Origin: a virus
DNA: 28,008 nt
Virus record (IMG/VR): IMGVR_UViG_3300017757_000101
Coordinates: 1-28,008 of that record
Direction: 5' to 3' (one strand)
The notes under the pieces are model-generated. The model had not been told where the DNA came from. It searched no databases and saw nothing but the letters and a program-made list of their open reading frames with translations. Shown in pieces: positions 8,035-27,858 of this stretch; within the stretch, counting starts at the first letter, position 1, and each line of letters begins with the position of its first letter. A program made the translations under genes and the position numbers.

Positions 8035-9231
8035 ATGTCTACACCTAATGGCGGTTTAATTACTGAAACTAATGTACAATACTACGCTGGTGCACAGCAG
8101 TTTTTTATATCTCCAGCTGTAGATAGAGTTACAACTACTTTTAATACAAATTTAGTTTTAGGTAGCGCTACTAGTTGGAACCCTATTGATCCTGATTTTG
8201 CTTTAAATAACTTTAGACTATATACAAGTACTAACGGTAGAACATGGATAGAATACATAACAACTTACCAAGTTATTGGTAATACTATTATTTACCCAGC
8301 TAATCTACCTTTAAACACTTATGTTAAAGTACAATTAAAACAATCAGCTGTTGAAAATAATTATGGAGGTTATGAATATACTAAATTAAAAGATTTAATT
8401 AATGGTTTTATGGTTGCTTATGTTGGCGAAGATAAACTTATACCTAAGGTAAGAAGAACTGATGTTATATTTCACGCTAAACGTGGATTACAAGAATTTA
8501 GTTACGATACTTTAAAAAGTATTAAATCTCAGGAATTAAATATACCTGCTGGATTATCTTTACCAATACCACAAGATTATGTGAACTACGTAAAAATGTC
8601 TTGGATAGATGCAGCTGGTGTTAAACACACTATATATCCTACTCAACTAAGTAGCGTTCCATCTAACACGCCTATACAAGATAACCTAGGAAAAATTGTT
8701 CAAGATCAGTTTGGAGAAAACACAGAAGGCAGCTCATTAACACAAGAGAGATGGGAAGGTCATAATCCTGCTGCTATTACTGGCGGCGGTGCTGCAATGA
8801 GTTGGAATAACGGAATGTATGACTGGTGGGGTATGAGTAGCTGGGGATATGGTTTTCAAAACTATGGACAAAGATACGGAGGAGATCCTGTTAATATGAA
8901 CGTTAATGGTTGGTTTTCTATAAACGAAGCTCAAGGTAATATAAGTTTTTCTAGTGATTTAAAAGGTAAACTTATAATACTAGAATATATTTCTGATGGT
9001 TTAGCATATGAGGAAGATGTAAAAATACCTAAATTAGCAGAAGACGCTATGTACTCTTATTTAAACCACGCTATATTATCAAGCAGAGCAAACGTTCAAG
9101 AGTATATAGTACAAAGATATAAAAAAGAAAAATTTGCTAAATTAAGAAACGCTAAAATAAGATTATCTAATATTAAGCTAGACGAAATCATACAAGTTAT
9201 GAGAGGTAAGTCTAAATGGATTAAACACTAA
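8035..9231 (+). CDS. Tail tubular / adaptor-like structural protein
   Basis: This 398-residue protein has an N-terminal beta-rich domain (residues about 1-110, with Trp-Ile-Glu-Tyr and Tyr-Val-Lys-Val-Gln-Leu) and then a helical stretch with Lys-Val-Arg-Arg-Thr-Asp-Val-Ile-Phe-His-Ala-Lys-Arg-Gly-Leu (about 139-153). A conserved-looking Leu-Pro-Ile-Pro-Gln-Asp-Tyr-Val motif lies near 177-184. That last motif type is common in podovirus connector proteins that contact the portal. A Gly/Trp/Tyr/Met-rich loop covers about 245-290, and the C-terminus is helical and basic. It lies between the smaller tail protein and the hub, with gaps of three bases on each side, so the three genes are probably co-translated. 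The structural role is firm, but the exact ring is not assigned. Confidence 0.65.
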   Translation: MSTPNGGLITETNVQYYAGAQQFFISPAVDRVTTTFNTNLVLGSATSWNPIDPDFALNNFRLYTSTNGRTWIEYITTYQVIGNTIIYPANLPLNTYVKVQLKQSAVENNYGGYEYTKLKDLINGFMVAYVGEDKLIPKVRRTDVIFHAKRGLQEFSYDTLKSIKSQELNIPAGLSLPIPQDYVNYVKMSWIDAAGVKHTIYPTQLSSVPSNTPIQDNLGKIVQDQFGENTEGSSLTQERWEGHNPAAITGGGAAMSWNNGMYDWWGMSSWGYGFQNYGQRYGGDPVNMNVNGWFSINEAQGNISFSSDLKGKLIILEYISDGLAYEEDVKIPKLAEDAMYSYLNHAILSSRANVQEYIVQRYKKEKFAKLRNAKIRLSNIKLDEIIQVMRGKSKWIKH

Positions 9232-9234
9232 TAC

Positions 9235-12200: not shown

Positions 12201-13359
12201 CAATAATGCTTTATTAACTGTTAGCTTAGAGTCTGCTTTTACACAAGATAACGCTAGTTCTGATGTAAAAAGTTTATTTACATTGACCTATTCAGGTTTA
12301 GATGCTTCTTATGATTTAGACACCGCTGGTCCTACTTTTTGGTATGGGACTGGTACAGCAAGCACACCATCAAATGGTATATATAACATTACTATAAAAG
12401 TAATATACACACCGTCAGGAGGCGTTTCTTATACAAGTTACATGCCTTATGTCGCTACCTTACAAAATGTAGCCCCTATATTTGATGACTGTTCTAATCC
12501 AACTGGTATAGAATCAACAACAACAACAATAAAAACTTTTACGGCCAAAAACGGAAGCGCTTATGTCGCTAATCAAACACAACAATTAACTTTTGATTTA
12601 GATCCATCTCAAGCTAATTACTCTTTAATTAATTCTCAATTTAACATGAGTACTAACGGTGTATTAACTGTAAATCCTAGTGTTTTAGTAGATTTATCAA
12701 CGTACACGGTTGTGGCAAGAGTAAGAGATGCAAACGGCGCAGGATTATCAACTACTTGTTCTATAACTTTTACAGTTGGTGTTCAACATGTTAATAGAGT
12801 TATATGCGAAGGAAGAGAAGGTTCAACCCCTACTGATTGTGGTAAAAGTCTTCAAACAGTATTTTTAGCGTCAGCATCAACACCTACGTTTAGTTGGCCA
12901 ATAACAGTTCAGTCTCAAGCAAACCCTAATAATAACATTTCTTTTCCACAACCAAACTTTAACTATAATGCTAGAGCTTCTTATACCGCGGCTGGAACAC
13001 CTACAACAGGCGCTTTAACACAAGGTGTTATGTTTTTAAGACCAACATTAACTTCAACTTTAAACCCAGGTAGTAGTTTAGTAGAGGTGTATTACACAAT
13101 ACAGCGCAGAAATTTAGGAGGAACAACTTGGTCTCAAGCCGTAGACACTAGCAATAATGTTATAAACGCTATAAAATTATCTGCTTCAAACGGAAACCCT
13201 GACAGTGATACAAAAAACTTTAGTATTCCTGGAGAATATAGAGTAGTATCAACAAACATAAGTGGCGAAGGATGCTCTGCTGGTAGTGGTACCGCTGCTT
13301 TCTTTGTAGACTTTGGAGACGCTACTTATTCAAGTGGCGCTTGCACTGGTCCACTGTAA
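9235..13359 (+). CDS. Tail hub / stabilization-type protein with Ig-like C-terminus
   Basis: This 1374-residue protein is likely a main body of the short tail, comparable in position to T7 gp12. It opens with Asn-Thr-Phe-Leu-Lys-Gly-Lys-Met-Asn-Gln-Asp-Leu-Asp-Ser-Arg-Leu (residues 5-20) and an Asn-Gly-Glu-Tyr-Arg-Glu-Ala motif, which I recall from uncultured marine phage hub proteins. Repeated blade-like units follow (Val-Tyr-Leu-Phe-Ala-Thr, Leu-Leu-Phe-Phe-Thr-Asp-Asn), suggesting a beta-propeller. Two beta insertions lie at about 180-380. Conserved-looking blocks occur near 523-560 and 593-624, the latter with Ser-Asp-Arg-Tyr-Gly-Arg-Gln. Residues about 1080-1182 look like one Ig/cadherin-like domain, followed by a Ser/Thr/Asn-rich region to the end. 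This outer part may bind the host surface. No separate tail fibre gene is visible in the window. Confidence 0.72.
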   Translation: MAEIKNTFLKGKMNQDLDSRLLPNGEYREAINLMISRSEGSTVGEFENVLGNTSISSLNGDNAVIIGHYVNETTNKVYLFATNYNNVDGVRSTSADNFIYELNLNTNVKKTLVTGGFLNFNKSFPILGVNLIEDLLFFTDNLNQPRKINIDLANPGNITTPTHYQNEDQISVAKYAPCEPIIVLDRVRFDIKGGAVNNVTVIGVDDVAGIKIGDSVSPYDVIAPSGFPSPSAQWNKANYVIAINPTASSLTLSEPMTAPNGFELLAQRPTMTNKTSELLSNGIKTSLTVDAGPIYSILVDSTNDSPDIIPKPGDIIIDTANPSTILSNTTILTANASYASATKTKWTLTFSKTITSATGAVVKIGINQDYDNAWRGDAAFLEDKFVRFSYRFKFEDNEYSLMAPFTQPMFIPKQFSEFGAGGNTNTVDMDNAYKSTILNWFENNIENIVLKTPMPYSSPALNVSKLLITDIDLLYKESDALAVKVLDTVDVTSLPNQSTNFPSLPFKDPVNGTVSTYYYSYDYASSKPYKTLPQGQTTRVYDKVPIKALAQEVIGNRVVYGNYVDKHSGPDSIPFSALVDKKRPYNHNFVQYPYHNLKQNRTYQVGFVLSDRYGRQSDVILSSYDNVDGTQGSTIYSNYNTYTEQNADPIINWLGDTLQVKIDSAIGTQTGSSFPGQPGVWNATTNPLGWYSYKVVVKQQQQEYYNVYLPGFVNGLPIAGSEDENDTSFSVLLSDNINKVPRNLQEVGPTDTEYSSGELLYIRVNNPDINGRNNRPYGYPLKFTPWNKQYFPGFEDQEVLSIATVRDMEIQGIPFVSNAPQGDYGRVGTANTNPVGGTPSAATPVSIGSIPWGVSPVVQPFYNADLNPFAIKIDTTANGKVALNDIDVPTVPGGVGAITNANALGAANIQSMVPFLSVAETKPVYSLLEIFWETSLQGKLNTLNNLINSQEPGITALTSSSASFSESAGTNTKIGQSISFVTGGGTTIDNNALLTVSLESAFTQDNASSDVKSLFTLTYSGLDASYDLDTAGPTFWYGTGTASTPSNGIYNITIKVIYTPSGGVSYTSYMPYVATLQNVAPIFDDCSNPTGIESTTTTIKTFTAKNGSAYVANQTQQLTFDLDPSQANYSLINSQFNMSTNGVLTVNPSVLVDLSTYTVVARVRDANGAGLSTTCSITFTVGVQHVNRVICEGREGSTPTDCGKSLQTVFLASASTPTFSWPITVQSQANPNNNISFPQPNFNYNARASYTAAGTPTTGALTQGVMFLRPTLTSTLNPGSSLVEVYYTIQRRNLGGTTWSQAVDTSNNVINAIKLSASNGNPDSDTKNFSIPGEYRVVSTNISGEGCSAGSGTAAFFVDFGDATYSSGACTGPL

Positions 13360-13389: not shown

Positions 13390-15009
13390 ATGCCATTAAC
13401 ACTAGAAGTTTCTTATTTTAACTCATACTATGTGAAGAAATTAGCAGACGTTCCTTACATACCTAGTATAAATATAACAAGAACGGCTAACGGCACTCAA
13501 TCTAGTGTGGCGGTTGGTCAAGCTGTTAATTTTAACACTGGACTTACTGTAGCTGTAGGCATGTTTATAACTGGAGCAGGTATAACTTTACCTACTAAGG
13601 TAACAGCTTTGGCAAACAATGATTCTTTTAGGTTTGACCAGGTTTTAAGTGTAACAAATTTAGCCTCATATACATTTGGTTATGACTGGACAGGACCACA
13701 AACTTCTAACCCAGATGAAGATTGGTACATAGAAGAATCACGCATTAGAGGGGGTTATAATAATACTTCCACTGATTATGGTGTTAAAGCTTATTTAGTT
13801 GAAGAACAAGATGCCCAGACGCGCAGAGGAAGCTCTCTTATATACTCTGGTATATTTAATTCAAGAACTGGTATTAATCAAACAAATCAATTTAGTGTAG
13901 CAGAAGAAATAACTAGAAGTGTAGACCCAATAAGTGGTTCAATACAAAAGCTATTTGCTGAAGATACTAACTTACTTATATTTCAAGAACGCAAAGTTAA
14001 CAATGCTTTAATAGATAAAGACGCTGTGTTCACAGCTGAAGGCTCTGCAATAACTACATCAGGTAAATTAGTAATAGGACAAATAACGCCTATTGCAGGA
14101 AACTGGGGTATAAGTCAAAATCCAGAATCATTCGCGTCATATGGTTATATGAAATATTTTGTTGATAAAAACAGAAACGCAGTATTAAGATTAGCTGGAG
14201 GTAATATAACAGAAATATCAAATTACGGTATGATAGATTTCTTTAGAGATACGTTATCCTCTATTACTAGCACAGGCGTTGTATTAGGCGCTTTTGACAA
14301 TTATACCCAATGTTATGTTTTATCTATACAGCCGCTTAATAGATACGAACCAGATGGAACTTTATACAAAACTTTAAATTTTGACGAAAGAACAAAAGGT
14401 TGGACTAGCTTTTTTACATATAAGCCAGACGCAATGTTTAGTTCCCAAGGTAGTTTTTATTCAGCAAAAGATAAATCAGACGATAGTAGAATATTCAAAC
14501 ACTATACTAATCAAACTAGGAATAGTTTTTATGGCTCAACAAGTAGTTCGTCTGTTCAATTTGTATTTAACCCATCGCCTAACAATGTAAAAACATTTCA
14601 AACGATAAACTACGAAGGAACTAGTGGCTGGGAGGTTACTTCTTTTCTTTCTGATGAAACAGGTTTTAGTTCTGTTAGTGGTAATTGGATTAACTATGTT
14701 GATTCAATTGTAGAAGGTCCTGGAAATACTGAGTATAGAAAAATATATAGCTATAAAGAAGGGTATTATGAAGAAAATGGTATACCTTATAGAGCTGGTT
14801 TTGACAGAAAACAAAATAAATATATGGCTGTTATTCCTAACAACACTCAAACAACATCACAAAATGCTTTACCAGGTCAAGTTATATTTGGCAACCAATC
14901 ATCAGGTATAAAAGCTTATTATGCAACAGTTACTATGAAAACAGATGGAACCACAAATCCTAATGGATTAAAAGAGTTGTTTGCTGTAAGTAGTACTTTT
15001 GCTCCATAA
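13390..15009 (+). CDS. Tail nozzle / second hub protein
   Basis: This 539-residue protein begins with Leu-Glu-Val-Ser-Tyr-Phe-Asn-Ser-Tyr-Tyr-Val-Lys-Lys (residues 4-16), a start I recall from marine phage tail proteins encoded next to the hub. Residues about 25-95 form a Thr/Val/Gly-rich inserted beta domain. The conserved body begins near 118 with Arg-Ile-Arg-Gly-Gly-Tyr-Asn-Asn and includes a stretch with Ile-Phe-Gln-Glu-Arg-Lys near 198 and a Trp-Gly-Ile-Ser segment near 240. The middle has blade-like strands (Tyr-Phe-Val-Asp-Lys-Asn-Arg, Tyr-Val-Leu-Ser-Ile-Gln), again propeller-like. It probably stacks with the 1374-residue protein to form the distal tail. An enzymatic site is not seen. 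The gap before it is 30 bases of A/T-rich leader with no hairpin. Confidence 0.65.
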   Translation: MPLTLEVSYFNSYYVKKLADVPYIPSINITRTANGTQSSVAVGQAVNFNTGLTVAVGMFITGAGITLPTKVTALANNDSFRFDQVLSVTNLASYTFGYDWTGPQTSNPDEDWYIEESRIRGGYNNTSTDYGVKAYLVEEQDAQTRRGSSLIYSGIFNSRTGINQTNQFSVAEEITRSVDPISGSIQKLFAEDTNLLIFQERKVNNALIDKDAVFTAEGSAITTSGKLVIGQITPIAGNWGISQNPESFASYGYMKYFVDKNRNAVLRLAGGNITEISNYGMIDFFRDTLSSITSTGVVLGAFDNYTQCYVLSIQPLNRYEPDGTLYKTLNFDERTKGWTSFFTYKPDAMFSSQGSFYSAKDKSDDSRIFKHYTNQTRNSFYGSTSSSSVQFVFNPSPNNVKTFQTINYEGTSGWEVTSFLSDETGFSSVSGNWINYVDSIVEGPGNTEYRKIYSYKEGYYEENGIPYRAGFDRKQNKYMAVIPNNTQTTSQNALPGQVIFGNQSSGIKAYYATVTMKTDGTTNPNGLKELFAVSSTFAP

Positions 15010-15020
15010 AATTAAATTAA

Positions 15021-15494
15021 ATGAACAAAATAACAGTGCAAAAACAAGCGCTAGCTACGCAAGAATTTAGAAATAAAATAATTAAAATAGAAAATCAATT
15101 GTTGTCTAGTAAAAATCCTAATGTAGTTAAAGGTAATTCTAGTTTTTTTCCATTAACACATTCTTTTTCAGAAGGCATATACGTAAGAGAAATGTCTATG
15201 CTTAAAGGTGGTGTTGTTATAGGTAAAATTCACAATAGATCTCAAACTTGGTTTTTGATGAAAGGTAAGCTTAAAATAGCAAATGAAAACGGAACTATAA
15301 CCTACAATGCTCCTACTTATGTAAATGGTTTAGCTGGCGCAAAAAGAGTTATATATGCCTTAGAGGATTCAGTCTTTGTAAATGTACATCCAAACCCTAG
15401 TAATGAAAAAAATATAGAAAAATTAGAAAAAATGCTTACATGCGAAACGTATGAAGCATTTGAAGAATACAAACAGAAAAATAAAATAATATGA
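15021..15494 (+). CDS. Cupin-fold protein in the virion module
   Basis: This 157-residue protein has the strand pattern of a single cupin barrel (residues about 40-125). It contains Val-Arg-Glu-Met-Ser-Met-Leu-Lys-Gly, then Ile-Gly-Lys-Ile-His-Asn-Arg-Ser-Gln-Thr-Trp-Phe-Leu-Met-Lys-Gly-Lys, and later Asn-Gly-Leu-Ala-Gly-Ala-Lys-Arg-Val-Ile-Tyr-Ala-Leu-Glu-Asp and Val-Asn-Val-His-Pro-Asn-Pro. The two His residues could bind a metal, but the classic two-histidine-plus-Glu cupin motif 1 is not complete. The C-terminal 35 residues are helical and charged. Similar small cupins occur in other phages among tail genes (recalled, not searched). Its role, enzyme or structural ligand binder, is unknown. 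It overlaps the next start by four bases (ATGA), indicating translational coupling. Confidence 0.65.
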   Translation: MNKITVQKQALATQEFRNKIIKIENQLLSSKNPNVVKGNSSFFPLTHSFSEGIYVREMSMLKGGVVIGKIHNRSQTWFLMKGKLKIANENGTITYNAPTYVNGLAGAKRVIYALEDSVFVNVHPNPSNEKNIEKLEKMLTCETYEAFEEYKQKNKII

Positions 15495-16252
15495 GCATGG
15501 TAGCCGCCGGTATAATTAGCGCCGGCACAAGTATAATCGGAAGTTTTATCGGTGGAAGCCGAGCAAAAAAAGCAGCCAGAGAAGCAAGAGCAGAGAAAAA
15601 AAGACTTGCAGCTGAACTTAAAACATTAGAAGAAAATAGAGATCCTATAATGAACCCGTATGCTAATATTACTAACTTAAGTGGTTTAGCAACAGACGTA
15701 AGCGGTATGGCTAGTAACCAGTTTGCTAATTTAGGCGTAGCAACTCAAGCTGCCGAAATGCAAGCTGAACAAGCAGATATAGCTTTAGCAAATAGTTTAG
15801 ACGCAATTAGATCCACAGGCGCAGGAGCTGGAGGCGCAACAGCTTTAGCTCAAGCAGCGTTAGAAAGTAAAAAAGGTATATCAGCAAGTATAGAACAACA
15901 AGAGGCTCAAAACGAAAAACTAAGAGCACAAGGAGAAGAAAGATTAGAAGGTATAAAAATGTCTGAAGCACAAAGGCTACAAGGTATTGGGTTATCTGAA
16001 GGACAAAGAATGCAACAGTCAGAAGCGCAAGGTTCTATATTTACACAAAACATGAATGAAGCTAGGCAAAATTCACAAATAGATAGAGTAGCACAACAAA
16101 TGGGTATGGCCGCGCAAGCACAAGCGCAAGCAAATGCAGATCAAACAAACGCTATAACATCAGGTATTTCAGCTGTTGGATCAATAGGTAGTGCTTTTAT
16201 GTCTGGTGGCGGAAAGCAACTTTACAACCCACAAACAGGAGCAAAACTATAA
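15491..16252 (+). CDS. Internal virion / ejection protein, T7 gp14-like
   Basis: This 253-residue protein has a short N-terminal Gly/Ala/Ser/Ile hydrophobic segment (residues 3-22), followed by a basic Arg/Lys/Ala helix (about 24-45). A long Ala/Gln/Glu-rich helical region (about 60-220) contains near-repeats such as Ser-Glu-Ala-Gln-Arg-Leu-Gln-Gly and Ser-Glu-Gly-Gln-Arg-Met-Gln. It ends in a Gly/Ser/Ala-rich hydrophobic tail. This hydrophobic-helix-hydrophobic architecture and the position before two larger proteins are those of T7 gp14 and similar ejection proteins that enter the outer membrane during DNA delivery. A second ATG lies six bases downstream at 15497. I prefer 15491 because it gives the ATGA overlap with the cupin gene. 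Confidence 0.72.
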   Translation: MSMVAAGIISAGTSIIGSFIGGSRAKKAAREARAEKKRLAAELKTLEENRDPIMNPYANITNLSGLATDVSGMASNQFANLGVATQAAEMQAEQADIALANSLDAIRSTGAGAGGATALAQAALESKKGISASIEQQEAQNEKLRAQGEERLEGIKMSEAQRLQGIGLSEGQRMQQSEAQGSIFTQNMNEARQNSQIDRVAQQMGMAAQAQAQANADQTNAITSGISAVGSIGSAFMSGGGKQLYNPQTGAKL

Positions 16253-16256
16253 CAAG

Positions 16257-17726
16257 ATGGCATATAATTTCGAAAACGTGACACCGTATGTGTCAACTTC
16301 TAATCAAACAGCAGCAAACAACCAAATGCTAGTTAGTGGTTTTCAAAACTCAATGAGAACTTTTCAAGCGTTAGAGCAGCAAAGACTTAAAGAAAATTCT
16401 AGAAAAAACGCTTTAATTGATAAAGATATAAAAGATGCAGAAGCGGCTTGGAATTTATCTGTTGGCGAAGCAAGAAAAACTGGTAAAGTTGTAGATCTTG
16501 ATTCTAAATTAAAAGATTTAAAAACAGAGTACTATAGATTAAATCAGTCAAGAAAAAATGAAGACGCCAACATAAGTGAAATAGACTACAAGCTAAGTCA
16601 AATACTTACAATGCCAGATAATTTAAAAAACATGGTAGAAAACTTAGGTGTTGATGGAACAGAATGGAGCACTAAAAAACCAGGTCAAACAAACCCCGCG
16701 CAAGATCCTAACTTAAGTATGTTTTTAAATACTGTGACTCAAGCTAAATCTTTTGAAGCTCCTGTGTATGATGAAAATAATAATGTAATAAAGCCAGGTT
16801 TTAAACAAGAATATAGTTTTGATTTAGACACTTATAGTTGGAATTTATCTACAAGTAGAGTTGATTCTATTGGTGAAATTCCTTTTTACAGTATAAACAG
16901 TAATTCTTATGACGCAATGGATATGGGTTTATACAATCCAGTTGACAAACCTTTGAATTCATATGTTTCAATAGGAGAAAAAAATGGTTTATACGGAAGT
17001 AAATTAGTAGAGGGAGAATATGTTTCAGACACGTCAGTATTAAATCCTGATTTTATTAAACCTTTAGCTAAAATTCAAATATATGACAAAGATAAAAACG
17101 GTAATCCAATAGCAGCTATTCCAGGTAAAGAAATTTACCAAATGCAAGAAGTTGTTGATATTGAAAAAATAAAAGCAAGTTTAGATATACCTTTACAAAC
17201 GGCAGCATCTGCTTATTTAGTAAGCCCTACAGTAGCGGCAACAGCTTGGAATAATGATTTCATGAAACAAAAAGAAGTTCGTGCTGATGGAACTAAATTT
17301 ATTCCTGAGGGTGAAGACGAAAGATTATATGAAATGTGGGATGCAAACACTCCACTTACTACAGATCAAAGAAGCTTACTATCACAAAGATATAAAGACA
17401 AGTTTTATGAAAACCTAGACAACTCAGGAATGCTTGAGCCTTCTAAAGATGGAGTTCCTTTTGGGCCAGGTAAAAGTAGCGCTAAAGATACATCTCCAGA
17501 TGATAAAATAAAAGGTTTTATTGCAGGAGTAGATATGATCAAAGCAAATAATATTAATGGCATGGGCGCAGCTTGGCTTTTAAATGATGAAGGAACTGCT
17601 TATAAATTAAAAGCATATAGAAAAAATCCTTTTGATGATGGTAGTTATGTTTGGGTTGATGTAGGTGGAGTTCCTGCTATTTCATTAGGTGATACAACTG
17701 CTTTTGCAGCAGCAATAAACAATTAA
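16257..17726 (+). CDS. Internal virion protein candidate (T7 gp15 position)
   Basis: I chose the ATG at 16257, which gives 489 residues. An earlier in-frame ATG at 16191 lies inside the preceding gene and would add 22 unlikely residues. The N-terminus (residues 1-130) is helical and charged, with Gln-Ala-Leu-Glu-Gln-Gln-Arg and Leu-Asp-Ser-Lys-Leu-Lys-Asp-Leu-Lys coiled-coil patterns. The middle is mixed, with many Asp, Asn and Tyr, and the end has a beta-rich segment with Tyr-Val-Trp-Val-Asp-Val-Gly-Gly. No enzymatic motif, signal peptide or membrane segment is seen. Its order between a gp14-like protein and a giant last virion protein corresponds to T7 gp15, which forms part of the ejection channel. 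That analogy is positional only, since I see no clear sequence similarity. Confidence 0.6.
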   Translation: MAYNFENVTPYVSTSNQTAANNQMLVSGFQNSMRTFQALEQQRLKENSRKNALIDKDIKDAEAAWNLSVGEARKTGKVVDLDSKLKDLKTEYYRLNQSRKNEDANISEIDYKLSQILTMPDNLKNMVENLGVDGTEWSTKKPGQTNPAQDPNLSMFLNTVTQAKSFEAPVYDENNNVIKPGFKQEYSFDLDTYSWNLSTSRVDSIGEIPFYSINSNSYDAMDMGLYNPVDKPLNSYVSIGEKNGLYGSKLVEGEYVSDTSVLNPDFIKPLAKIQIYDKDKNGNPIAAIPGKEIYQMQEVVDIEKIKASLDIPLQTAASAYLVSPTVAATAWNNDFMKQKEVRADGTKFIPEGEDERLYEMWDANTPLTTDQRSLLSQRYKDKFYENLDNSGMLEPSKDGVPFGPGKSSAKDTSPDDKIKGFIAGVDMIKANNINGMGAAWLLNDEGTAYKLKAYRKNPFDDGSYVWVDVGGVPAISLGDTTAFAAAINN

Positions 17727-17736
17727 ATAAAAACAC

Positions 17737-20700
17737 ATGGCAGAAATTATATACGTAACAGGAGAAGGTGACGAATACACTGAATCTCAGTTAATAGAAC
17801 TTGCTGAAAAAAACGGCAAAAGTGTTGAAGAATTTAAATCTTTAATAGGAGCTGTTTTAAAACAAAGTCAAGAAATAAAAAAAGAACCGATCTCAAAAGC
17901 AACTCAGGGTGCAGCTGCGGGATCGAAAGAAAACAATGTACCCGACGTTATGGAGCCGTTTTCGGTAAATACTTCTACGGTATCACTAGACAAGTATCTT
18001 GTAAGTGCTAGCGATTTAGCTGGTGACGAAACAGATGTTGTCAAAAATATAAATAGAAAACTTTCACAAGTAGGTTTAAATTCAACAGAAGGAACTGCCT
18101 GGGGTAGTTTAGATGCTATTAATTTATCAAAATTTAATGCAAAAGGTATTGAAGACACCGAACGTTTAATACCACTTTTGGGTATTGAAGCGTTAATGCA
18201 AGGTATATCTGTAAGTGACGATGATGATTTAGCTGCTTCTGCTGAAAAAATTAACGAATATATAAAAAATAATGGTAATCCTAATTACTTAAACGAAGCT
18301 AATGCAAGAAGTGCTGGTGTTTTTGAAGAATATAATAAATATATTAAAGCTCCAGAAATAGAAAATATTGAGCAAGAATACTGGAGTAGTCTTAGAAATA
18401 AATTTGCAAAAATTAAAAAAACATTAACAACAGGTAGTTTTTCTGATATATTTGATACTTCACCGAAAAGAACAAAAGACGGGACCGTTATATATAGAGA
18501 AGAACTTACTGAAAAAGATTTTGATTCACAAAGAGAATTTGAATTATATCAAATTTATGAAAAAGGAGGAGATTTTGGAAAAGCATCAGAAGAAGAATTA
18601 TTAAAATTTGATGCACAAAGAAAAGCAGATTACAAAGCAAGGAGATCTTCTGAGTTTGCTAATGATTTAGATCAAAAAACTAGAGATGATATATTAGCGC
18701 TGACTTTTAATTTACAAAACCAGGCTATTGAAACAGTTAAAAATTTACCTGAAGAAGCAAAAAAATTTGAATCTGAACTTAATACTTATAGAGCAAACGA
18801 AGAAGCATACGCAAAAGCTCCATCATTTGAAGGTTGGACAAATCTTACTACAGATTTTGAAAACTTGATAGAATCTCAAGCAAACCTACAAGAAAGTGAA
18901 AAATTAGTTAATCAATACATTGACGTAGCTCCACTAGCTATTAAAAATTTTGGAGCGGATTACAACAGACTTAGACAGTTAAGAACTGGTTTTAAAAACA
19001 TAGGTGTGGATATGATGTATATTGTAAATCAAATGGATCAATTATCTGGCGAAATATCTTATAGAGCTACAGGTAATCCTATGATGAAAATTCAAGCTCA
19101 ACTTGGCGAAGATCAAATAGTAGATCTTAGTAAAAGTATCGACAAGGAAACAGCTACATATCAAGAGTCTTTAAAAATTGACGAAATAAAATCTGCATCT
19201 GACGCAGGTAGATGGGTGGCGGCAAGTACTACAGAGCTTATACCTTCTTTTAGTATGGCTTTAACTGGTTCAGCAGCTCTTCCTTTGTTTTTTTTAAGTG
19301 GAGCAGGTAGCGCTGGTTTAGAGGTTGCTAAAGATCAAAAAGATGCAGCGATTCGTTTAAAGCAAAATTTAGAAAAATTAGAAACAGCTGAAGATCCTTT
19401 TTCTATTATGGCGCTAGAGTCTGAAATAGAGAAAGATAAGAAAACATTAAAAATTACTCCTGGACAAAAACTAACTAAACAATTTATTGATGGAATTGCA
19501 GAAGTTATGTTTGAAAAATACGGTACAATGCTACTGTTGAAGCAAGCTAAGAAAGGTTTAAAGATGATACCTAAACAAACTATTACTGAGTCTATAGTTT
19601 TTGCTGGTAAAGAAATGGCCACTGGTTTAAACAGAGAAGGATTATCAGAATGGGGTACAAACGCAATTCAAAACTGGTCTTCAATATATGTTTTAGATCA
19701 AAATAAAAATTTATTTCCAGAAGGCGCTGTAGGTGTAGAAAAATTCAAAGGTGTTTTTACTGGAGGCTTAGAAGTTTATGCTAAAGGAGCGTTAATGGGT
19801 GGTGCTATAAGCGGTACAAACGGTATAGCGGCTATAAAACAAGCTATAGCAAGTGAGCTTTATACTAAAGCAGATTTAGCAAAATTAAAAAATAACCTTA
19901 AAGCATTTAAAGAATTAACAGGTATTAATCTAGCTCAAAACTCTAGTTTAGATATAACTAATATACCTCTTCCTATGAGAACACCAGAGGTTAATGCTTT
20001 AATAGAAGAATTGCAAAGTGAGAAATTTAAATTAGATTCAGATGTTTTAAATAGATTAGGTACGGATTTAACTTTAGAACAAGCTTATGAAATAGGAGAA
20101 GTTAATTATAAAATTAGAGAAAACAGTAGAGCTTTTCAAGAAGCTTCTATGAATCCTAACATAACACCAGTTCAATTAAGGCAACTAGAAACTAAGTATA
20201 GAAACAACTTTAATGAATTAATGGGAGAGAGAGAAAGTCTTTTAACTAATAAAGATGCTTCTTTAGATAATTTAAAAAACAAAACACTTAATCAATTAAA
20301 GCAAGAGTTTAACTTAGGATATCAAATGTATTCAACAAGAATGCAAGCAGCCTCTTTTTTTAATCTTAATAAACAATGGGATAAACTTTCGCAAGAAGAA
20401 AAACAATCTTATTATGATAAGGTTAGAGAAGTTAACACAGAAGGAATTGAAGGAAAAGGTAAAGAACTTTATTTTAAAGAACAATATACTAAAGGTTTTG
20501 ATAGTGGTTTAGAAAACGCTAAAGCTTTTGCTGATCAGTTTATTACTAAAGATATTAATTTTGTAATTGCCGAAGGTAAAGATAAAAATAAACAAATACT
20601 TATAGCTTATGCTAGGGCTTTAGAAGACTCTGGACTTAAAGAAAAAGATAAAAAAGAAAGGCTAGCTAGAGTGACAGAAGCTTTAAACGACGGAAGTTTT

Positions 20701-23700
20701 GATGGTGTATCAGAAGGTAATTTTATTATTATAGATAAAGATGCTTCTATAGAAAAAATGAGAACAGGCATTGCTGCTCATGAAGTTTTACACCCTTACG
20801 TAAAACAACAATTTAAAAATCAGAAAAATATAGACGAAAAAGGTCAAGAGCTTTTAGACTATATGGAAAAATCTCAACCTGATTTACATGCTCAAGTTAT
20901 ATTTAGATTAGAAAGTAGCTACACTAAAAAAGATGCAGATGGAAAATTTGTAAAAGACGCTGCTTATTATGAAGAAGCTTTAAACGCTTTATCAGATGTG
21001 TTAGCAGATAACAGTGGCGAGTTTGGTTCTGAAATAAACGCTGACACTATAAACGTGATAAGAAATTTTATAAACTTAATGCTGCCGTCAGCTTTGCAAT
21101 TTAAAGAAAATGAAGGATTTAATGTTTTTCAGTTTGTTAAAAATTTTAATGGATCTGCACATTTTGGAGGTAAGTTTAAAGACAAAGGTAAAGTACCAGC
21201 AGCAACAATGCCTGAAGACGAAAAACAAGATAGAGCACAAACATTATCTTTGAGTAAATCTGCTCAAGCTGCTAAAAAAATAGTAGATGATATTGGATTA
21301 GCTAACAACTATGATCCTAATTCTGAAGCTTTAGCTAAGCAACTTCCTGGCATGATAGATGCTGTTATATCAAAAACTTTTAAAGGTTTAAGAAACGAAG
21401 TTCAAAAAGAATTAAACCAAGGCGTTCAGTTTGCTTTAATAAATCCTAGTAGAACAGGTAAAAGTGATTTAAATAGTTTTATTCCAGCTGAATATGATAA
21501 TGATGGTAAAAAAATAAAAGGTAACACAAGTTTATATGGATATTTAAACTTTAGAATAAACAAAAGAATACTAGACGTATTAAGATTAAATCCAACTTTG
21601 ATAAACAATTATCAACAACAAATTGATGATTCAACGCTTCAAATTTCTGGAGACGCTAACGTAAAAACAAACGCAGCTGTAACAGAAAAACAAAAATACA
21701 AAAGTTTATTAGCTAGTAAAGTTTTTGATACCGATGCTTTAAAAAATGTTAATCAAAAAATAATCAAAACTGTTAGAGTTTTAAAAAATCGTATTGACAA
21801 AGCTGTTTCTAAAAACGTCACACAAACACCTATAGTTAGAGAAATAAAACAATCAATAGCTAACGATGTTGACATTGATATTAAAAAAGAAATGGGTGGC
21901 AAAGCAAATGATAAGTTTAAAAACTTTTTAATAAAAAACAAAAAAGCCATACTAGAAAACGCAACAACTAGTTGGTTGTCTGTTGCTTTTCCTGCAGCAA
22001 TACAGAAAAAAGTAAACGGAGTTTTTACCTCTGACTGGAAAGGCAAAGTAATAGATATATCTGACACATCTACTAATCAAGCAGGTATGACATCAGGTTT
22101 TCAATTAATAAGAAGATTACCTAACGCTAATAACCAAATAAGTGATGAGCAATTTTTAGATAATTACTTTAAAAATGGCAACGTGATCGCAAGTAAAAAA
22201 GAATCTTTAGCTAAAGAATTAGGTGCTGAAGTTAGTTTTGAAATAATGAGTAGAGATTTAGCAACTCAAGGACCTATATATCAAGCGTTGGTTAAAAACC
22301 AACAAGCTTTAGGTTATGTTTTTGCTGACAACACTATTGAAAACCTTAGCAACCAAATGGAACGTGGTCAAATTAAATTTAGCGTTACTTCGCAAGAAAT
22401 GACGCAAGGTTTGTATGATTTATTAGATGTTGCTGTAAACTATGATACGAATAATTCTAATTTTATAGAAGCAAAAGAGTTGCAACCAAAAGAAATACAA
22501 GACGAATGGGATAACTTAGGTTTAAACGAATTGTTTGGCGATGGAGTTTCAGGTTTTAAAAGTCCTTTAATTCAATTATTTGAGCAAGATAAAATGCCAG
22601 CTATATTTAAACCATACATGTATGTTTACAGGCAAACTATAACTGCTAGAGCTCAAGAAGTATCAATGGACCAATTAAGAGATTTTTCCGAAGCTTTAAT
22701 GAAAGAAATGCCTTCTGATTTAGTTAAGTTTTTAGGTCCAGATGTATTTGCTATAACTAATAGGTATTTAGACGGTGCAATTACAAAAAGAGATAAAAAA
22801 GGTAATATTATACCTGACGCGCAGGGTAAATATGTAGCTCTAGCAAACTTAAGAAAAGAAATAATTGAAAATGTAGATAACTTAGACTTACCTTTTAACC
22901 CTGCAGATATTGAGATATTTAATTCTTCTTCAGGATTAATGCAGCAAATAGGTAACGTTTTAAGTAAAAAGATTTCAAAAGCTGATAAAATTAAAGAAAT
23001 AGAGAGAAGATTTGGAGACAGAATAAGAGCTGCAAACGCGGCTAATCATGCTGCTTTAGGGTATTTAATGGACAAAGCTACTGAGTTATTAGCTTCTAAA
23101 CCAGAGTTAGCTCCAGGTTTCATGAGATGGCAGGAATCTAATACAAGTAACGCTAGAGGAATGAGAGGTTTAACAACTTTAAATTTATTAGACATACGTG
23201 AAGGCTCTCAAGCCGCAAATGAATTTCATCCAGATTATTTACAAGCAGTTGAATATGCTACCGAGGCTGCGGAAAAAGCTTACAACAAACTTTCAAATAA
23301 AAGAAAAAGTTTAGTTTCTTTAGAGTCTTATACTCAAAATAGATTAAACAGCCCAACAACAAGCCCTATGTCTTACTTAAGGTTTAAAGGCGAGCATGTT
23401 GATCCTGCTGCAAATGTTTCATTATCTTTAGCCGAAATAGTTTTAAATAATGCTGCTAAAGTAATTAAAACACCTGTAGAGTTAGAAACTATATTAACTT
23501 ATCAAGCAATAGAGGTTGGTGAGGCTATTGCTAATTATACTCAAACACTAGGGGTTAAACTATATTCAGACATACAAGATGACGCTCCAGGAGGAACAAC
23601 AAGTAGGGCTAGAGATTTTAGGATGTTAGCTTTAAACAAAGGTCAAAGAAATAATTTCACAACCTTAGATGGTATTTCTGGTGACAACTATATAAAAAAC

Positions 23701-26529
23701 GAAATAATAAAACTAAGTGACAAAATAAATATAGACGAGCTAACTAGTATTAATTCTAAACAAAAAGCAATACAAAACGCTGAGTCATATAAATTATCAT
23801 TAACACCTAAAGGTATAACTGTTTTAGACTTTGACGATACGTTAGCCATAACTAAATCTAACGTACTTTACACAATGCCTGATGGCGTAAAAGGAAAAAT
23901 AGATGCTACAGAGTTTGCAGCTAGATCTGCAGAGCTTGAATCTAAAGGAGCTAAATTTGATTTTAGCGAATTTGACAAAGTTATAGACGGTAAAACAGCG
24001 CCATTATTTAAAAAAGCTTTAAAACTACAAGAAAAATTTGGGCCTACTAATATGTTTGTTTTAACAGCAAGACCTATGACTGCTGCTCCTGCAATAGAGG
24101 CGTTTTTGAAAACCAACGGATTAAACATACCTATAAAAAACATTACAGGATTAGAAGATGGTAAAGCATCTGCAAAAGCAGACTGGGTTTTAAACAAAGC
24201 TGCTGAAGGATATAATGATTTTTATTTTGCTGACGATGCTATCAAAAATGTTAAAGCTGTAAGAGACGCTTTAGAAACTGTAGATGTTAAATCAAAAGTT
24301 CAACAAGCTAGAATTAATTTTAGCAAAACATTTAGCACTAGATTTAACGACATGATAGAAAGAAACAAAGGAGTTGCTTCAGAAGCAAGATACTCTGAAA
24401 TTGTAGCAAGAAGAATGGGAGCAGGTATTGGTAAATATAAAGTTTTTCTACCTCCTTCTGCCGAAGATTTTGAAGGTATGACTTCTTATGTTTTTGCTGG
24501 TAAAGGAAAACAAGGTAACGAAGATCAAAAGTTTTTTCAAGACGCTTTAATAAAACCTTACATGAAAGGAGTTTCTGCAATAGAAAATAGTAAGCAAACA
24601 TTATTAAAAGATTATAAAAACTTACAAGCTTTATCAAAGGAAAATAGATTAAGTAAACTAATTCCTTCTGGAGATTTTACTTATGACCAAGCTGTAAGAG
24701 TGTTTTTATGGACTAAAGCTGGATATGAAATACCTGGTATATCAAAAAGAGACGCTGCTAAACTAAATCAACTAGTAGCAGGTGATCAAAAATTAAGTGC
24801 TTTTGCAAACTCTGCATTATTAATGAGTAAAGAAAATGTTTGGCCTGAACCAAGTAAATACTGGGACACTCAATCGTTATTGTCTGATTTAAATAGCATG
24901 AATGATGGAGTAAAAAGAAAAGAATATTTAGCAGAGTTTATAGAAAATGTTGATGAAATATTTAGCGATCAAAATTTAAACAAAATACAAGCTTTATATG
25001 GCACAAGACAAAGAGATGCTTTAGAAGATATAATATATAGAATGAAGACTGGTACAAACAGACCTTCAGGTAGCAACAAGATAACAAACAAATGGAATAA
25101 TTGGGTAAATAACTCTATTGGTGCTATTATGTTTTTTAACAGAAAATCAGCATTGCTACAAACTTTGTCAACAGTAAACTTTATTAATTGGTCAGATAAT
25201 AATCCTGTAAAAGCTGGTATTTCATTTGCAAATCAACCACAGTTTTGGAAAGATTTTACTTATATATTTAATTCTAATAAATTAAAAGAACGTAGATCAG
25301 GACTAAAAATTAACGTAAATGAATCTGAAATAGCTAACGCTGCAAAAGGAGCTAAAAATAAAGCAAATGCAGTTCTTGCTAAGATACTAGAAAAAGGATT
25401 TTTACCTACACAAATGGTGGATAGTTTTGCTATAGCGGCAGGTGGAGCTTCTTTTTATAGAAATAGAGTAAATACTTATATAGGTCAAGGTTTAACTAAG
25501 CAAGAGGCAGAAGCTAAAGCATGGGAAGATTTCTCTGCAATAGCAGATTCAACACAACAGTCGTCAGATCCGTTGCTAATATCACCTCAACAAGCTAGTA
25601 CAATTGGTAGACTTGTTTTGAATTTTCAAAACGTTACAATGCAGTATACTAGGTTAATGAAAAAAGCTGGTTTAGATTTAATAAAAAGAAGAATATCTCA
25701 AGGTTATGAAACTCAATTACAAAGTGATTTATCTAATATATCTAAAATAATATATTACGGCGCTGTTCAAAACGCTATATTTACTGCTTTACAAAATGCT
25801 TTGTTTGCGTTTTTACCTGGGTTTGATGAAGATGAAGATGAAGAAAGAAAAGATGCAAATTTAGACAAAAAGACAAGTAGAATGTTAAATAGCATGTTAG
25901 ATACTTTGTTAAAAGGATCAGGTCTTACTGGTGCAACTATTTCAGCTATTAAAAATGTTGTTATGAAATATAACGAACAAGAAAAGAAAGGATATATGGC
26001 TGATCATACTTACACTATACTTGAGGCTGCTAATATTTCCCCACCTATTGGATCTAAATTAAGAAAAATATACAGCGCTATACAAACAAATAAGTTTGAA
26101 AAAGCTGTTATAGCTGAAAGAGGATTTGATATTACAATAGATGGTAAGTTTAATTTAAGTCCTAAATACCAAGTACTAGGCTCTTTAGTTGAAGGTGTTA
26201 CTAATTTTCCTGCTGATAGAATTGTTTCAGAAATTAACGCAATTGCAGAATCTTTAGATACTAGAAACACTAAATACCAAAGATTAGCTTTAGGTTTAGG
26301 TTGGAGAGCTTGGGATGTAAATGCTAAAAATGAAGAAAACGATTTAATAAAGCAAGAAGCAAAAGAAAAAAAGAAAATAAAAAGTAAAGAAAAATCTAAA
26401 ATTAAAGCTAAGTCAAAAAGAGATAAAGCTAAAGAATTAAAAGCAGAAGAAGCTAAAAGAAAAGCTGATGAGTTTAACGCGTTGACTAAAAAACAGCAAG
26501 ACTCTATATTAAATGCGTATTATAATTAA
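17737..26529 (+). CDS. Giant polyvalent ejection protein (metallopeptidase + HAD)
   Basis: At 2930 residues this is the last and largest virion-module gene, in the position of T7 gp16. In order it has: a short acidic helical N-terminal unit (about 8-40) and a low-complexity linker; long coiled helices (about 200-480); two Gly/Ala hydrophobic stretches (about 501-528 and 672-700) suited to membrane insertion; a zincin-like site His1015-Glu1016-x-x-His1019 with candidate third ligand Glu1079 or Glu1080; a helical region; and a HAD domain with nucleophile Asp2031, acid Asp2033, Thr2110, Lys2147 and Asp2166-Asp2167. From about 2230 to 2720 there is a block I recall from uncultured marine phage proteins and which resembles large polyvalent protein domains, with an Asp/Glu run near 2698. 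The tail is Lys-rich. It is probably packaged and ejected. The catalytic roles are inferred from motifs. Confidence 0.82.
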   Translation: MAEIIYVTGEGDEYTESQLIELAEKNGKSVEEFKSLIGAVLKQSQEIKKEPISKATQGAAAGSKENNVPDVMEPFSVNTSTVSLDKYLVSASDLAGDETDVVKNINRKLSQVGLNSTEGTAWGSLDAINLSKFNAKGIEDTERLIPLLGIEALMQGISVSDDDDLAASAEKINEYIKNNGNPNYLNEANARSAGVFEEYNKYIKAPEIENIEQEYWSSLRNKFAKIKKTLTTGSFSDIFDTSPKRTKDGTVIYREELTEKDFDSQREFELYQIYEKGGDFGKASEEELLKFDAQRKADYKARRSSEFANDLDQKTRDDILALTFNLQNQAIETVKNLPEEAKKFESELNTYRANEEAYAKAPSFEGWTNLTTDFENLIESQANLQESEKLVNQYIDVAPLAIKNFGADYNRLRQLRTGFKNIGVDMMYIVNQMDQLSGEISYRATGNPMMKIQAQLGEDQIVDLSKSIDKETATYQESLKIDEIKSASDAGRWVAASTTELIPSFSMALTGSAALPLFFLSGAGSAGLEVAKDQKDAAIRLKQNLEKLETAEDPFSIMALESEIEKDKKTLKITPGQKLTKQFIDGIAEVMFEKYGTMLLLKQAKKGLKMIPKQTITESIVFAGKEMATGLNREGLSEWGTNAIQNWSSIYVLDQNKNLFPEGAVGVEKFKGVFTGGLEVYAKGALMGGAISGTNGIAAIKQAIASELYTKADLAKLKNNLKAFKELTGINLAQNSSLDITNIPLPMRTPEVNALIEELQSEKFKLDSDVLNRLGTDLTLEQAYEIGEVNYKIRENSRAFQEASMNPNITPVQLRQLETKYRNNFNELMGERESLLTNKDASLDNLKNKTLNQLKQEFNLGYQMYSTRMQAASFFNLNKQWDKLSQEEKQSYYDKVREVNTEGIEGKGKELYFKEQYTKGFDSGLENAKAFADQFITKDINFVIAEGKDKNKQILIAYARALEDSGLKEKDKKERLARVTEALNDGSFDGVSEGNFIIIDKDASIEKMRTGIAAHEVLHPYVKQQFKNQKNIDEKGQELLDYMEKSQPDLHAQVIFRLESSYTKKDADGKFVKDAAYYEEALNALSDVLADNSGEFGSEINADTINVIRNFINLMLPSALQFKENEGFNVFQFVKNFNGSAHFGGKFKDKGKVPAATMPEDEKQDRAQTLSLSKSAQAAKKIVDDIGLANNYDPNSEALAKQLPGMIDAVISKTFKGLRNEVQKELNQGVQFALINPSRTGKSDLNSFIPAEYDNDGKKIKGNTSLYGYLNFRINKRILDVLRLNPTLINNYQQQIDDSTLQISGDANVKTNAAVTEKQKYKSLLASKVFDTDALKNVNQKIIKTVRVLKNRIDKAVSKNVTQTPIVREIKQSIANDVDIDIKKEMGGKANDKFKNFLIKNKKAILENATTSWLSVAFPAAIQKKVNGVFTSDWKGKVIDISDTSTNQAGMTSGFQLIRRLPNANNQISDEQFLDNYFKNGNVIASKKESLAKELGAEVSFEIMSRDLATQGPIYQALVKNQQALGYVFADNTIENLSNQMERGQIKFSVTSQEMTQGLYDLLDVAVNYDTNNSNFIEAKELQPKEIQDEWDNLGLNELFGDGVSGFKSPLIQLFEQDKMPAIFKPYMYVYRQTITARAQEVSMDQLRDFSEALMKEMPSDLVKFLGPDVFAITNRYLDGAITKRDKKGNIIPDAQGKYVALANLRKEIIENVDNLDLPFNPADIEIFNSSSGLMQQIGNVLSKKISKADKIKEIERRFGDRIRAANAANHAALGYLMDKATELLASKPELAPGFMRWQESNTSNARGMRGLTTLNLLDIREGSQAANEFHPDYLQAVEYATEAAEKAYNKLSNKRKSLVSLESYTQNRLNSPTTSPMSYLRFKGEHVDPAANVSLSLAEIVLNNAAKVIKTPVELETILTYQAIEVGEAIANYTQTLGVKLYSDIQDDAPGGTTSRARDFRMLALNKGQRNNFTTLDGISGDNYIKNEIIKLSDKINIDELTSINSKQKAIQNAESYKLSLTPKGITVLDFDDTLAITKSNVLYTMPDGVKGKIDATEFAARSAELESKGAKFDFSEFDKVIDGKTAPLFKKALKLQEKFGPTNMFVLTARPMTAAPAIEAFLKTNGLNIPIKNITGLEDGKASAKADWVLNKAAEGYNDFYFADDAIKNVKAVRDALETVDVKSKVQQARINFSKTFSTRFNDMIERNKGVASEARYSEIVARRMGAGIGKYKVFLPPSAEDFEGMTSYVFAGKGKQGNEDQKFFQDALIKPYMKGVSAIENSKQTLLKDYKNLQALSKENRLSKLIPSGDFTYDQAVRVFLWTKAGYEIPGISKRDAAKLNQLVAGDQKLSAFANSALLMSKENVWPEPSKYWDTQSLLSDLNSMNDGVKRKEYLAEFIENVDEIFSDQNLNKIQALYGTRQRDALEDIIYRMKTGTNRPSGSNKITNKWNNWVNNSIGAIMFFNRKSALLQTLSTVNFINWSDNNPVKAGISFANQPQFWKDFTYIFNSNKLKERRSGLKINVNESEIANAAKGAKNKANAVLAKILEKGFLPTQMVDSFAIAAGGASFYRNRVNTYIGQGLTKQEAEAKAWEDFSAIADSTQQSSDPLLISPQQASTIGRLVLNFQNVTMQYTRLMKKAGLDLIKRRISQGYETQLQSDLSNISKIIYYGAVQNAIFTALQNALFAFLPGFDEDEDEERKDANLDKKTSRMLNSMLDTLLKGSGLTGATISAIKNVVMKYNEQEKKGYMADHTYTILEAANISPPIGSKLRKIYSAIQTNKFEKAVIAERGFDITIDGKFNLSPKYQVLGSLVEGVTNFPADRIVSEINAIAESLDTRNTKYQRLALGLGWRAWDVNAKNEENDLIKQEAKEKKKIKSKEKSKIKAKSKRDKAKELKAEEAKRKADEFNALTKKQQDSILNAYYN

Positions 26530-27260: not shown

Positions 27261-27542
27261 ATGAGTAACAAAATTTCAGAAAACACTGAATTAAATTTAG
27301 ATTTAAAAACACTTGCTATAATTGTAAGTTTTGTTGTAACTGTTGTAGGCATGTGGTTTGCTCTTCAAAAAGATATAGATCTTGCTAAAGAACTACCTAA
27401 GCCAGAGGTTAGTAGAACTGAGTATGATTTAAAAGATCAACTAATCAGGGAGACAATAATGAACACGCAAGACAAGGTGGAGCAAAATAGTGAAAAATTA
27501 GATAAAATTGACGAAAAGCTTTACCAGATAATTAAAAAATAA
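27261..27542 (+). CDS. One-TM coiled-coil protein, holin-like candidate
   Basis: This 93-residue protein has a short charged N-terminus and one hydrophobic segment (residues about 15-36, from Leu-Ala-Ile-Ile-Val through Gly-Met-Trp-Phe-Ala-Leu). An acidic/basic helical tail follows, with heptad-like Leu/Ile spacing (about 55-93, ending Ile-Ile-Lys-Lys). The layout resembles small phage lysis membrane proteins with a coiled-coil tail, and it lies just upstream of an endolysin. It starts one base after the lipoprotein stop. A GGAAG element 7 bases upstream of the ATG is one of the few Shine-Dalgarno-like sites in the window. A holin is the best guess. Lack of a second membrane segment leaves a spanin-like or adaptor role possible. 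Confidence 0.55.
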   Translation: MSNKISENTELNLDLKTLAIIVSFVVTVVGMWFALQKDIDLAKELPKPEVSRTEYDLKDQLIRETIMNTQDKVEQNSEKLDKIDEKLYQIIKK

Positions 27543-27546
27543 AACT

Positions 27547-27858
27547 ATGAAAAATATATTAACTTTAGCAATGTTATTGCTTTCTAGCGTGTTATACTCA
27601 CAAAAATACGTTTTAGTAGAAATAAACTCTGAGTGGAATTTAAAAAACTCTGCTAAAATTGACAAAGTTAAAAATGTGGAACATAGAATAACTTATTTAG
27701 AAGATCAAACACCTTCTTTTAAGAAAAAAATAAAATCTGTTCCGCTTGCTATATTATATAAAGACAACGACGCTATAGCTAGATGGGATGCTGATATAAG
27801 TTTTAAACTTATAGTTACTGAGGAGCAGATAAAAAAAGCTATAAAAGACAATGAGTAA
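27547..27858 (+). CDS. Secreted thioredoxin-like protein lacking CxxC
   Basis: The 103-residue product starts with a signal peptide (residues 1-19, Met-Lys-Asn then a Leu/Ile core ending Leu-Tyr-Ser-Gln) of flavobacterial type. The mature part has a thioredoxin-like order: a strand Tyr-Val-Leu-Val-Glu-Ile-Asn, then Glu-Trp at 29-30 where Trp-Cys-x-x-Cys would sit, then Ser-Val-Pro (64-66) like the cis-proline loop. The strand Leu-Ala-Ile-Leu-Tyr-Lys-Asp-Asn-Asp and Ile-Ala-Arg-Trp-Asp-Ala follow, and a final helix. Both active-site Cys positions are Asn (31 and 34), so no redox activity is expected. It overlaps the endolysin start by eight bases. The fold assignment is by eye. The role in lysis or the periplasm is unknown. 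Confidence 0.55.
   Translation: MKNILTLAMLLLSSVLYSQKYVLVEINSEWNLKNSAKIDKVKNVEHRITYLEDQTPSFKKKIKSVPLAILYKDNDAIARWDADISFKLIVTEEQIKKAIKDNE

Follow-up and report, generated by a model that had tools for sequence, protein, structure and literature searches.

A predicted polyvalent virion protein of 2,930 residues, with putative protease, phosphatase and sigma-like modules, in a podovirus akin to viruses of aquatic flavobacteria

A giant protein encoded at the end of the virion gene block of a podovirus was characterized computationally as a putative ejected polyvalent protein. In this reading, which we hold with fair confidence, it joins an N-terminal ejection module, a processing zincin, a phosphatase of the Pnkp type and a helical C-terminus of the polyvalent-protein type. 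The gene lies in a 28,008-base IMG/VR virus record, a 28-kb fragment analyzed as a whole and referred to here as the window. A sequence-only reading of this DNA had described one uninterrupted frame of 2930 residues, and this frame, which opens with ATG, indeed contains zero internal stops. Absent from that description were a sigma-factor region-2-like domain, which adjoins the protease, and a C-terminal core (C-core) that is all-helical in the predicted model. The features are collected in Table 1.

Table 1. Features of the giant and of its upstream neighbors (window coordinates)
Feature	Residues	Position	Strand	Basis
Muzzle, C-terminal part (crAss_MUZ_C)		13390..15009	+	Pfam 3e-10
253-aa protein, likely small ejection/virion partner		15491..16252	+	HMM 3.9e-7 to phi38:1 gp099; hydrophobic N-terminus
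~490-aa protein, slot of phi18:3 gp121 / elemoF gp19		16257..17726	+	synteny only
ORF of the giant, predicted polyvalent virion protein	2,930 aa	17737..26529	+	ATG start; 546 IMG/VR relatives
N-terminal part 1, fast evolving	1-480	17737..19176	+	alignment profile; dN/dS mostly 0.1-0.5
N-terminal part 2	480-905	19174..20451	+	common to last virion protein of Elemovirus, Pervagoviridae, Pachyviridae
Modest Gly/Ala/hydrophobic stretch	501-531	19237..19329	+	composition and hydropathy
Zincin (gluzincin-type) metallopeptidase domain, predicted	~911-1154	20467..21198	+	AF2, VIA, HMM
HExxH (HEVLH)	1015-1019	20779..20793	+	H1015, E1016, H1019 invariant 33/33
E1080, predicted third zinc ligand	1080	20974..20976	+	invariant 33/33, on later helix
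Sigma-factor region-2-like domain	~1190-1290	21304..21606	+	VIA, PDB profile, hhalign, Pfam in L017
Conserved block B	1315-1560	21679..22416	+	~24-45% identity in most relatives; dN/dS 0.04-0.16
HAD phosphatase, T4 Pnkp 3'-phosphatase-like, predicted	~2024-2185	23806..24291	+	phrog_415, VIA, motifs, dN/dS
C-terminal helical core, family hallmark	2200-2870	24334..26346	+	polyvalent-protein type by fold
Lys-rich tail	2880-2930	26374..26526	+	composition

Relatives of the giant are numerous. A profile search with residues 2199-2930 retrieved 546 IMG/VR stretches that encode them; 80 of these were read, and removal of truncated and near-identical copies left 59 proteins of 2,364-3,370 aa, which were aligned (individual members are given below by their L numbers). 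Identity among the 59 is about 47-77% in the C-core, about 24-45% in block B and often 10-24% in the remainder. The protease and the C-core are constant across the family, and the HAD phosphatase, a kinase and the sigma-like part are exchanged. C-core relatives also occur in metagenome bins (MAGs) of Bacteroidetes, Sphingobacteriales and Flavobacteriaceae, while two C-core contigs in an Aliivibrio MAG may be binning errors. One relative, L018 (9527-12175), has a C-terminal match nearly identical to that of L017 and an open frame of 883 aa versus 2,665 aa, for which a frameshift, an assembly error or a split gene are the options.

Virion context and delivery

The phage is a podovirus related to viruses of aquatic flavobacteria. 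Its nearest portal proteins are those of ctfjg026 (48%), Elemovirus (40%), phi38:1 (34%) and phi18:3 (28%), phages mostly of Flavobacterium and Cellulophaga that represent Elemovirus, Pervagoviridae and Pachyviridae relatives. The gene order is terminase, portal, head genes, muzzle, fiber, the 253-aa protein, the ~490-aa protein and the giant. PHROG matches upstream identify the terminase (phrog_6681), the portal (phrog_6547) and a head protein (phrog_13704), along with other head or connector proteins, and the tail fiber upstream of the giant is short. The giant closes the virion block, occupying the last virion gene position that had been assigned to it, and is followed by small ORFs that are not virion-like. 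Two of these encode a 93-aa protein with one hydrophobic segment (27261-27542) and a 103-aa protein with a signal-peptide-like N-terminal sequence (27547-27858).

Residues 480-905 connect the giant to an MS/MS-annotated virion protein. An HMM of this region built from the window family matches elemoF gp18 (2.8e-33), phi38:1 gp101 (8.5e-33) and phi18:3 gp123 (5.7e-22), and the record of phi18:3 gp123 is annotated from experimental MS/MS proteomics analysis of virions. A giant protein likewise stands in the last virion position of the Elemovirus, phi38:1 and phi18:3 genomes. These three giants have the same gene position and a homologous 480-905 region; they differ from the window protein in lacking the HAD motif and a detectable C-core sequence match, and those of phi18:3 and phi38:1 also lack HExxH. 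Residues 1-480 gave a weak HMM match to the ctfjg026 giant (9.1e-8). The 253-aa protein has a weaker HMM match to phi18:3 gp120, itself MS/MS-annotated (5.4e-4; hhalign 4.2e-7), than to phi38:1 gp099. Sequence comparison of the ~490-aa protein with phi18:3 gp121 and elemoF gp19 gave no clear similarity. The listed GTG start of its gene (16191) overlaps the preceding gene and is probably too early; an ATG at ~16257, directly past the stop of that gene, is likelier.

The trio in the window, a small protein, one of ~500 aa and a giant, recalls in its order and sizes the three-protein ejection sets of phages T7, P22 and N4 (for N4, PMC12633501). Because of the homology to MS/MS-annotated gp123, the last gene position, the homology of the 253-aa partner and the agreement in order and sizes, we strongly infer that the giant is carried in the virus particle. 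Among three internal virion proteins (253 aa, ~490 aa and 2,930 aa) it would come third and be the largest. It would be packaged by way of its N-terminal part, pass in threaded form down the tail ahead of the DNA or together with it, and refold inside the host cell to which it would thus be delivered. Storage of cargo of a comparable kind for ejection is described in the structure of crAss001 (PMC10172136).

Of the ejection features proposed previously, the Lys-rich tail holds, with 15 Lys within the final 51 residues, while the plural Gly/Ala membrane-type stretches reduce to one modest hydrophobic stretch at 501-531. Its best 19-residue Kyte-Doolittle mean is 1.5, and G+A amounts to 23% over 500-560 versus 15% overall.

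The N4-like virion RNA polymerase gp50 is an ejected protein of ~3,500 residues with an HExxH part and a large helical C-terminus (PMC12633501), and RNAP-associated crAss cargo is likewise comparable in size class and role (PMC10172136). Together with a DVDID string at 1377, these parallels raise the idea that the giant is itself an N4- or crAss-type virion RNA polymerase. This was rejected as largely refuted, and we give it hardly any credence: DxDxD is missing in L002, L003 and L005-L007 despite the conservation of the surrounding block, the giant lacks a polymerase domain and any Pfam or PDB RNAP match, and no Rpb1-type RNAP was found in 10 long family contigs with controls working. A search for T7-type RNA polymerase (PF00940) returned no match in any control genome and is hence uninformative. 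Of Crassvirales traits, the fragment displays the muzzle match. The window phage resembles crAss001 in its muzzle-type tail and in the proposed storage of internal proteins as cargo to be ejected (PMC10172136); the giant shows no significant sequence match to the crAss001 cargo proteins gp45-gp50. The muzzle, a single gene in crAss001 and one single PHROG, is divided in the window between two genes, 9235-13359 and 13390-15009 (phrog_14478); of the 1,474 positions of phrog_14478, 1-176 match the first and 940-1222 the second.

The constant parts: protease and C-terminal core

The HExxH motif that had been reported at 1015-1019 is present exactly there, as HEVLH, and is the sole HExxH in the protein. 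An HExxH turns up in 0.16% of shuffles of the window protein, and 58 of the 59 non-redundant relatives carry a single copy, against a shuffled mean of 0.29 of 59 and a maximum of 3. The motif is kept although the surrounding sequence drops to 10-24% identity in many relatives. In a 33-sequence alignment of the protease region only five columns are invariant, four of which are H1015, E1016, H1019 and E1080. An AlphaFold2 model (mean pLDDT 75.6; 84-96 across most of the zincin part) displays a zincin-like arrangement in which HExxH and E1080 sit on separate helices beside a small sheet. VIA-align placed zincin metalloproteases at the top (Z 7.1), with PPEP-1 at Z 5.4, scores that are middling taken alone. 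The chains ranked first are those of a well-known bacterial toxin, a match of fold only that is uninformative on toxicity to animals; the same toxin fold served Iyer et al. as the reference for recognizing the zincins of polyvalent proteins (PMC5512222). Foldseek against the PDB gave no significant match for the zincin-containing and HAD + C-core models, an outcome that can occur with multidomain models of 700-940 residues, and VIA was applied instead. The structure predictions place a zincin-like arrangement where one had been claimed, and from the fold and the invariant ligands residues ~911-1154 are predicted to form a gluzincin-type metallopeptidase.

The zincin profile also matches elemoF gp18 (1.6e-10), so that this module too is common to the Elemovirus protein and the giant, as well as ctfjg026 (5e-7). 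The ctfjg026 giant (L014 741-12320, minus strand) has two HExxH motifs, at aa 1615 and 2500, and the strongest match of the family zincin profile falls on the second (open-frame residues 2481-2604). L082 alone among the full-length relatives lacks HExxH; its aligned residues (aa ~1000) read EEIGH, which makes it a candidate natural loss of the protease.

The putative zincin would most likely cut the long polypeptide itself, and perhaps a host protein too, freeing the other modules. Iyer et al. 2017 (PMC5512222) put forward zincin-driven processing of this kind for polyvalent proteins. In the giant itself, no cleavage site was identified. A different target, namely a prohead or capsid protein during assembly, the cell envelope at entry or a host protein, is a lesser but substantial possibility: the protease is the most constant enzyme of the family amid variable surroundings, and in phage P1 the MPTase of DdrB is associated with a head protein that undergoes processing (Iyer 2017, PMC5512222). 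No substrate motif was seen, however, and a mid-chain position in a multidomain protein is the arrangement for which self-processing was proposed (PMC5512222).

Searches with the HAD + C-core model against viral structure models assigned the C-core to a class. The top Foldseek hits are unstudied proteins with 31-46% identity, followed by numerous proteins that bear the names large polyvalent-protein-associated, ART-PolyVal or MuF, and by one piece of an Elemovirus structural giant (E 2.1e-3). A Pfam sequence search of the giant gave no LPD match. On the strength of the fold matches the giant is filed with the phage polyvalent proteins, in agreement with the label first given to it, and it unites several disparate enzymatic or effector domains within one large late-gene polypeptide. 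The closest predicted structures are A0A218MMX7, A0A218ML07 and A0A218MLT5 from uncultured viruses and A0A7S9STY3 from Virus NIOZ-UU157; A0A218MLT5, named UDP-N-acetylglucosamine kinase, looks like the kinase variant described below. We know of no function or virion evidence for any of these four proteins.

The exchanged parts: HAD slot and sigma-like domain

The full set of HAD motifs noted near 2031-2167 could be assigned to D2031/D2033/T2035, T2110, K2147 or K2154, and D2166/D2167, and every motif residue (DxDxT, T/S, K, DD) is invariant in the 26 of 26 relatives that bear the domain. PHROG 415, 'polynucleotide kinase', matches the window protein at 5.5e-6 and 25 of 59 slot sequences. When the HAD model was compared using VIA, the T4 Pnkp 3'-phosphatase ranked first (Z 11.2, 120 residues, 2.6 A), ahead of the bacterial RNA-repair Pnkp1 (10.9) and whole T4 Pnkp (9.7), with other HADs at <=9.6, a small margin. 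The model thus has a HAD fold at the position proposed for one, closest to Pnkp 3'-phosphatases, and the module is predicted by fold and motifs to be of the Pnkp 3'-phosphatase type. It shares the HAD fold and motifs with the 3'-phosphatase half of T4 Pnkp and Pnkp1, its best fold matches, and differs from them as a module of a virion protein without an adjacent kinase.

Among pairs of close relatives, dN/dS of the HAD segment is 0.00-0.11 and mostly near 0.03, the lowest or near-lowest of the modules, so that the HAD is under strong constraint (in the pair L036/L050 this segment holds the kinase instead). These values, together with the invariance of the catalytic residues of both enzymes (33/33 and 26/26), argue against the domains being inactive relics in a structural, tape-measure-like protein, a very improbable account to which the size and internal position, similar to those of tape or cargo proteins, and the large helical parts without a known fold would otherwise lend themselves.

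The HAD is an optional part, its signature being found in 30 of 59 members. In 9 of 59 a Walker-A kinase occupies the slot (Zeta_toxin 1.9e-15, AAA_33 5.5e-15, phrog_505 polynucleotide kinase 3.5e-12), 21 have neither, and only L049 has both, where about 4.6 would be expected if the two were independent (hand calculation, not corrected for phylogeny). Zincin and HAD are no fixed pair, with about half of the family lacking the HAD. In L049 a zeta/Pnk-like P-loop kinase (aa 2225-2450, locus about 8891-9568) is nested in the HAD immediately after motif I, and this protein thus bears both halves of a Pnkp-like enzyme. L047 (aa ~2050-2240) and L056 (aa ~2230-2420) have a HAD insert of ~190 aa near the site of the L049 kinase. 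An ART identity for this insert, suggested by a by-eye YYHGTS...HYT resemblance only, was set aside, with neither Pfam nor PHROG agreeing.

At the first moment of infection the HAD would serve as a 3'-phosphatase of the Pnkp type with nucleic-acid ends as its substrate; it might, for instance, remove the 3'-phosphates that host defenses based on nucleases or tRNA cleavage leave behind. In sister phages a zeta/Pnk-like kinase fills its slot. A complete tRNA-repair system was considered and rejected because matches to an RNA-ligase profile are few (3 of 10 long family contigs), fall below the curated cutoff and do not track the HAD. The substrate is the least certain step of the proposal; a signaling nucleotide or another compound may serve, compatible with the missing RNA-ligase link. 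That the HAD dephosphorylates a nucleotide or signaling small molecule (a defense signal or dNMP) or a host phosphoprotein rather than ends is, in our estimate, somewhat unlikely. Many HAD phosphatases match at Z 8-9.6 in VIA, the leading HADs by Foldseek alone are class C acid phosphatases and an effector phosphatase, and a consistent RNA-ligase linkage is missing; in contrast, both the PHROG profile and the top matches in VIA point specifically to the Pnkp type, and the slot kinase of sister phages matches phrog_505 polynucleotide kinase.

Convergent signals, individually weak yet agreeing in family and register, suggest a sigma-region-2-like domain next to the protease. For model residues 306-419 (window ~1175-1288), sigma factors occur throughout the VIA table, E. 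coli sigma70 and the SigE N-terminal domain (8b3z; Z 5.8, 77 of 77 residues, 21% identity) included. Five of the 10 matches of a family profile against all PDB sequences are sigma factors, all in region 2 (E 0.07-1.4). The two top matches of that search, 8cws and 8cwy, were left out of account, since both are designed helical-repeat proteins that the profile hit repeatedly. With hhalign, each of four E. coli sigma factors aligned in region 2 with scores of 17-24 (P 0.004), compared with 8.6-13.8 for 12 control proteins and 8.8-12.0 for reversed or shuffled profiles. In L017, Pfam Sigma70_r2 matches in register (E 0.088). The resemblance could instead be chance similarity of a small helical bundle, which we treat as a considerable minority prospect: VIA Z values of 4-6.4 are within the range of common helical arrangements, the Foldseek E value is not significant and the hhalign P is merely 0.004. 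Against it, the PDB profile search, hhalign with its controls and VIA agree independently on family and register.

The sigma-like version is clear in about 21 of 59 members and moves as a unit between close relatives. Identity between L063 and L067 is 94-100% up to the end of the protease and mostly 80-98% beyond ~1600, yet only 16-28% over 1301-1400, inside the sigma-like domain; aa 1250-1450 thus represent a clean recombinational swap of the single sigma-like module. L036 and L050 display the reverse pattern, with a differing N-terminus and protease and ~90% identity from the sigma-like domain onward. The sigma-like module would probably bind DNA or the clamp of the host RNA polymerase. More speculatively, and with rather low probability, a sigma-like module injected as part of one of the earliest proteins to reach the cell and freed by the neighboring protease would engage host RNA polymerase and start early transcription, doing for these phages what the injected polymerase does for N4. 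The idea of a split sigma factor whose region-4-like helix-turn-helix would be encoded by the 103-aa gene downstream (UPF0122 E 0.13) was rejected because the 103-aa protein starts with a signal-peptide-like segment.

Relation to known polyvalent proteins

Polyvalent proteins, their zincins, ARTs and zeta-like kinases are already known. As cataloged by Iyer et al. 2017 (PMC5512222), they resemble the giant in that a single, very large late-gene product combines several mutually unrelated enzyme domains, with the zincin as the commonest module and zeta-like kinases and ARTs as further parts. The giant differs by adding the predicted Pnkp-type HAD and the sigma-region-2-like domain and by its link to a last virion gene for which a homologue is MS-proven. 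Neither 'phosphatase' nor 'sigma' occurs as a word in the main text of the 2017 catalog (PMC5512222), and in the open-access literature no description was found of a Pnkp-type phosphatase or a sigma-like domain in an ejected protein.

Members of the family are frequent among public viral contigs, and distant relatives are available in culture (Elemovirus and Cellulophaga phages), so that the family can be addressed experimentally. The division into constant parts (protease and C-core) and exchanged ones gives direct evidence of which components a phage must inject during the first minutes, and the alternation of HAD and kinase connects what is injected with the chemistry of nucleic-acid ends or with zeta-type kinases. 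Should the sigma-like part bind host RNA polymerase, this would constitute a further virion-borne route to early phage transcription, beside injected polymerases and polymerase-modifying enzymes. Among the minor search results, a Pfam RPM2 match (E 0.018) was regarded as chance.
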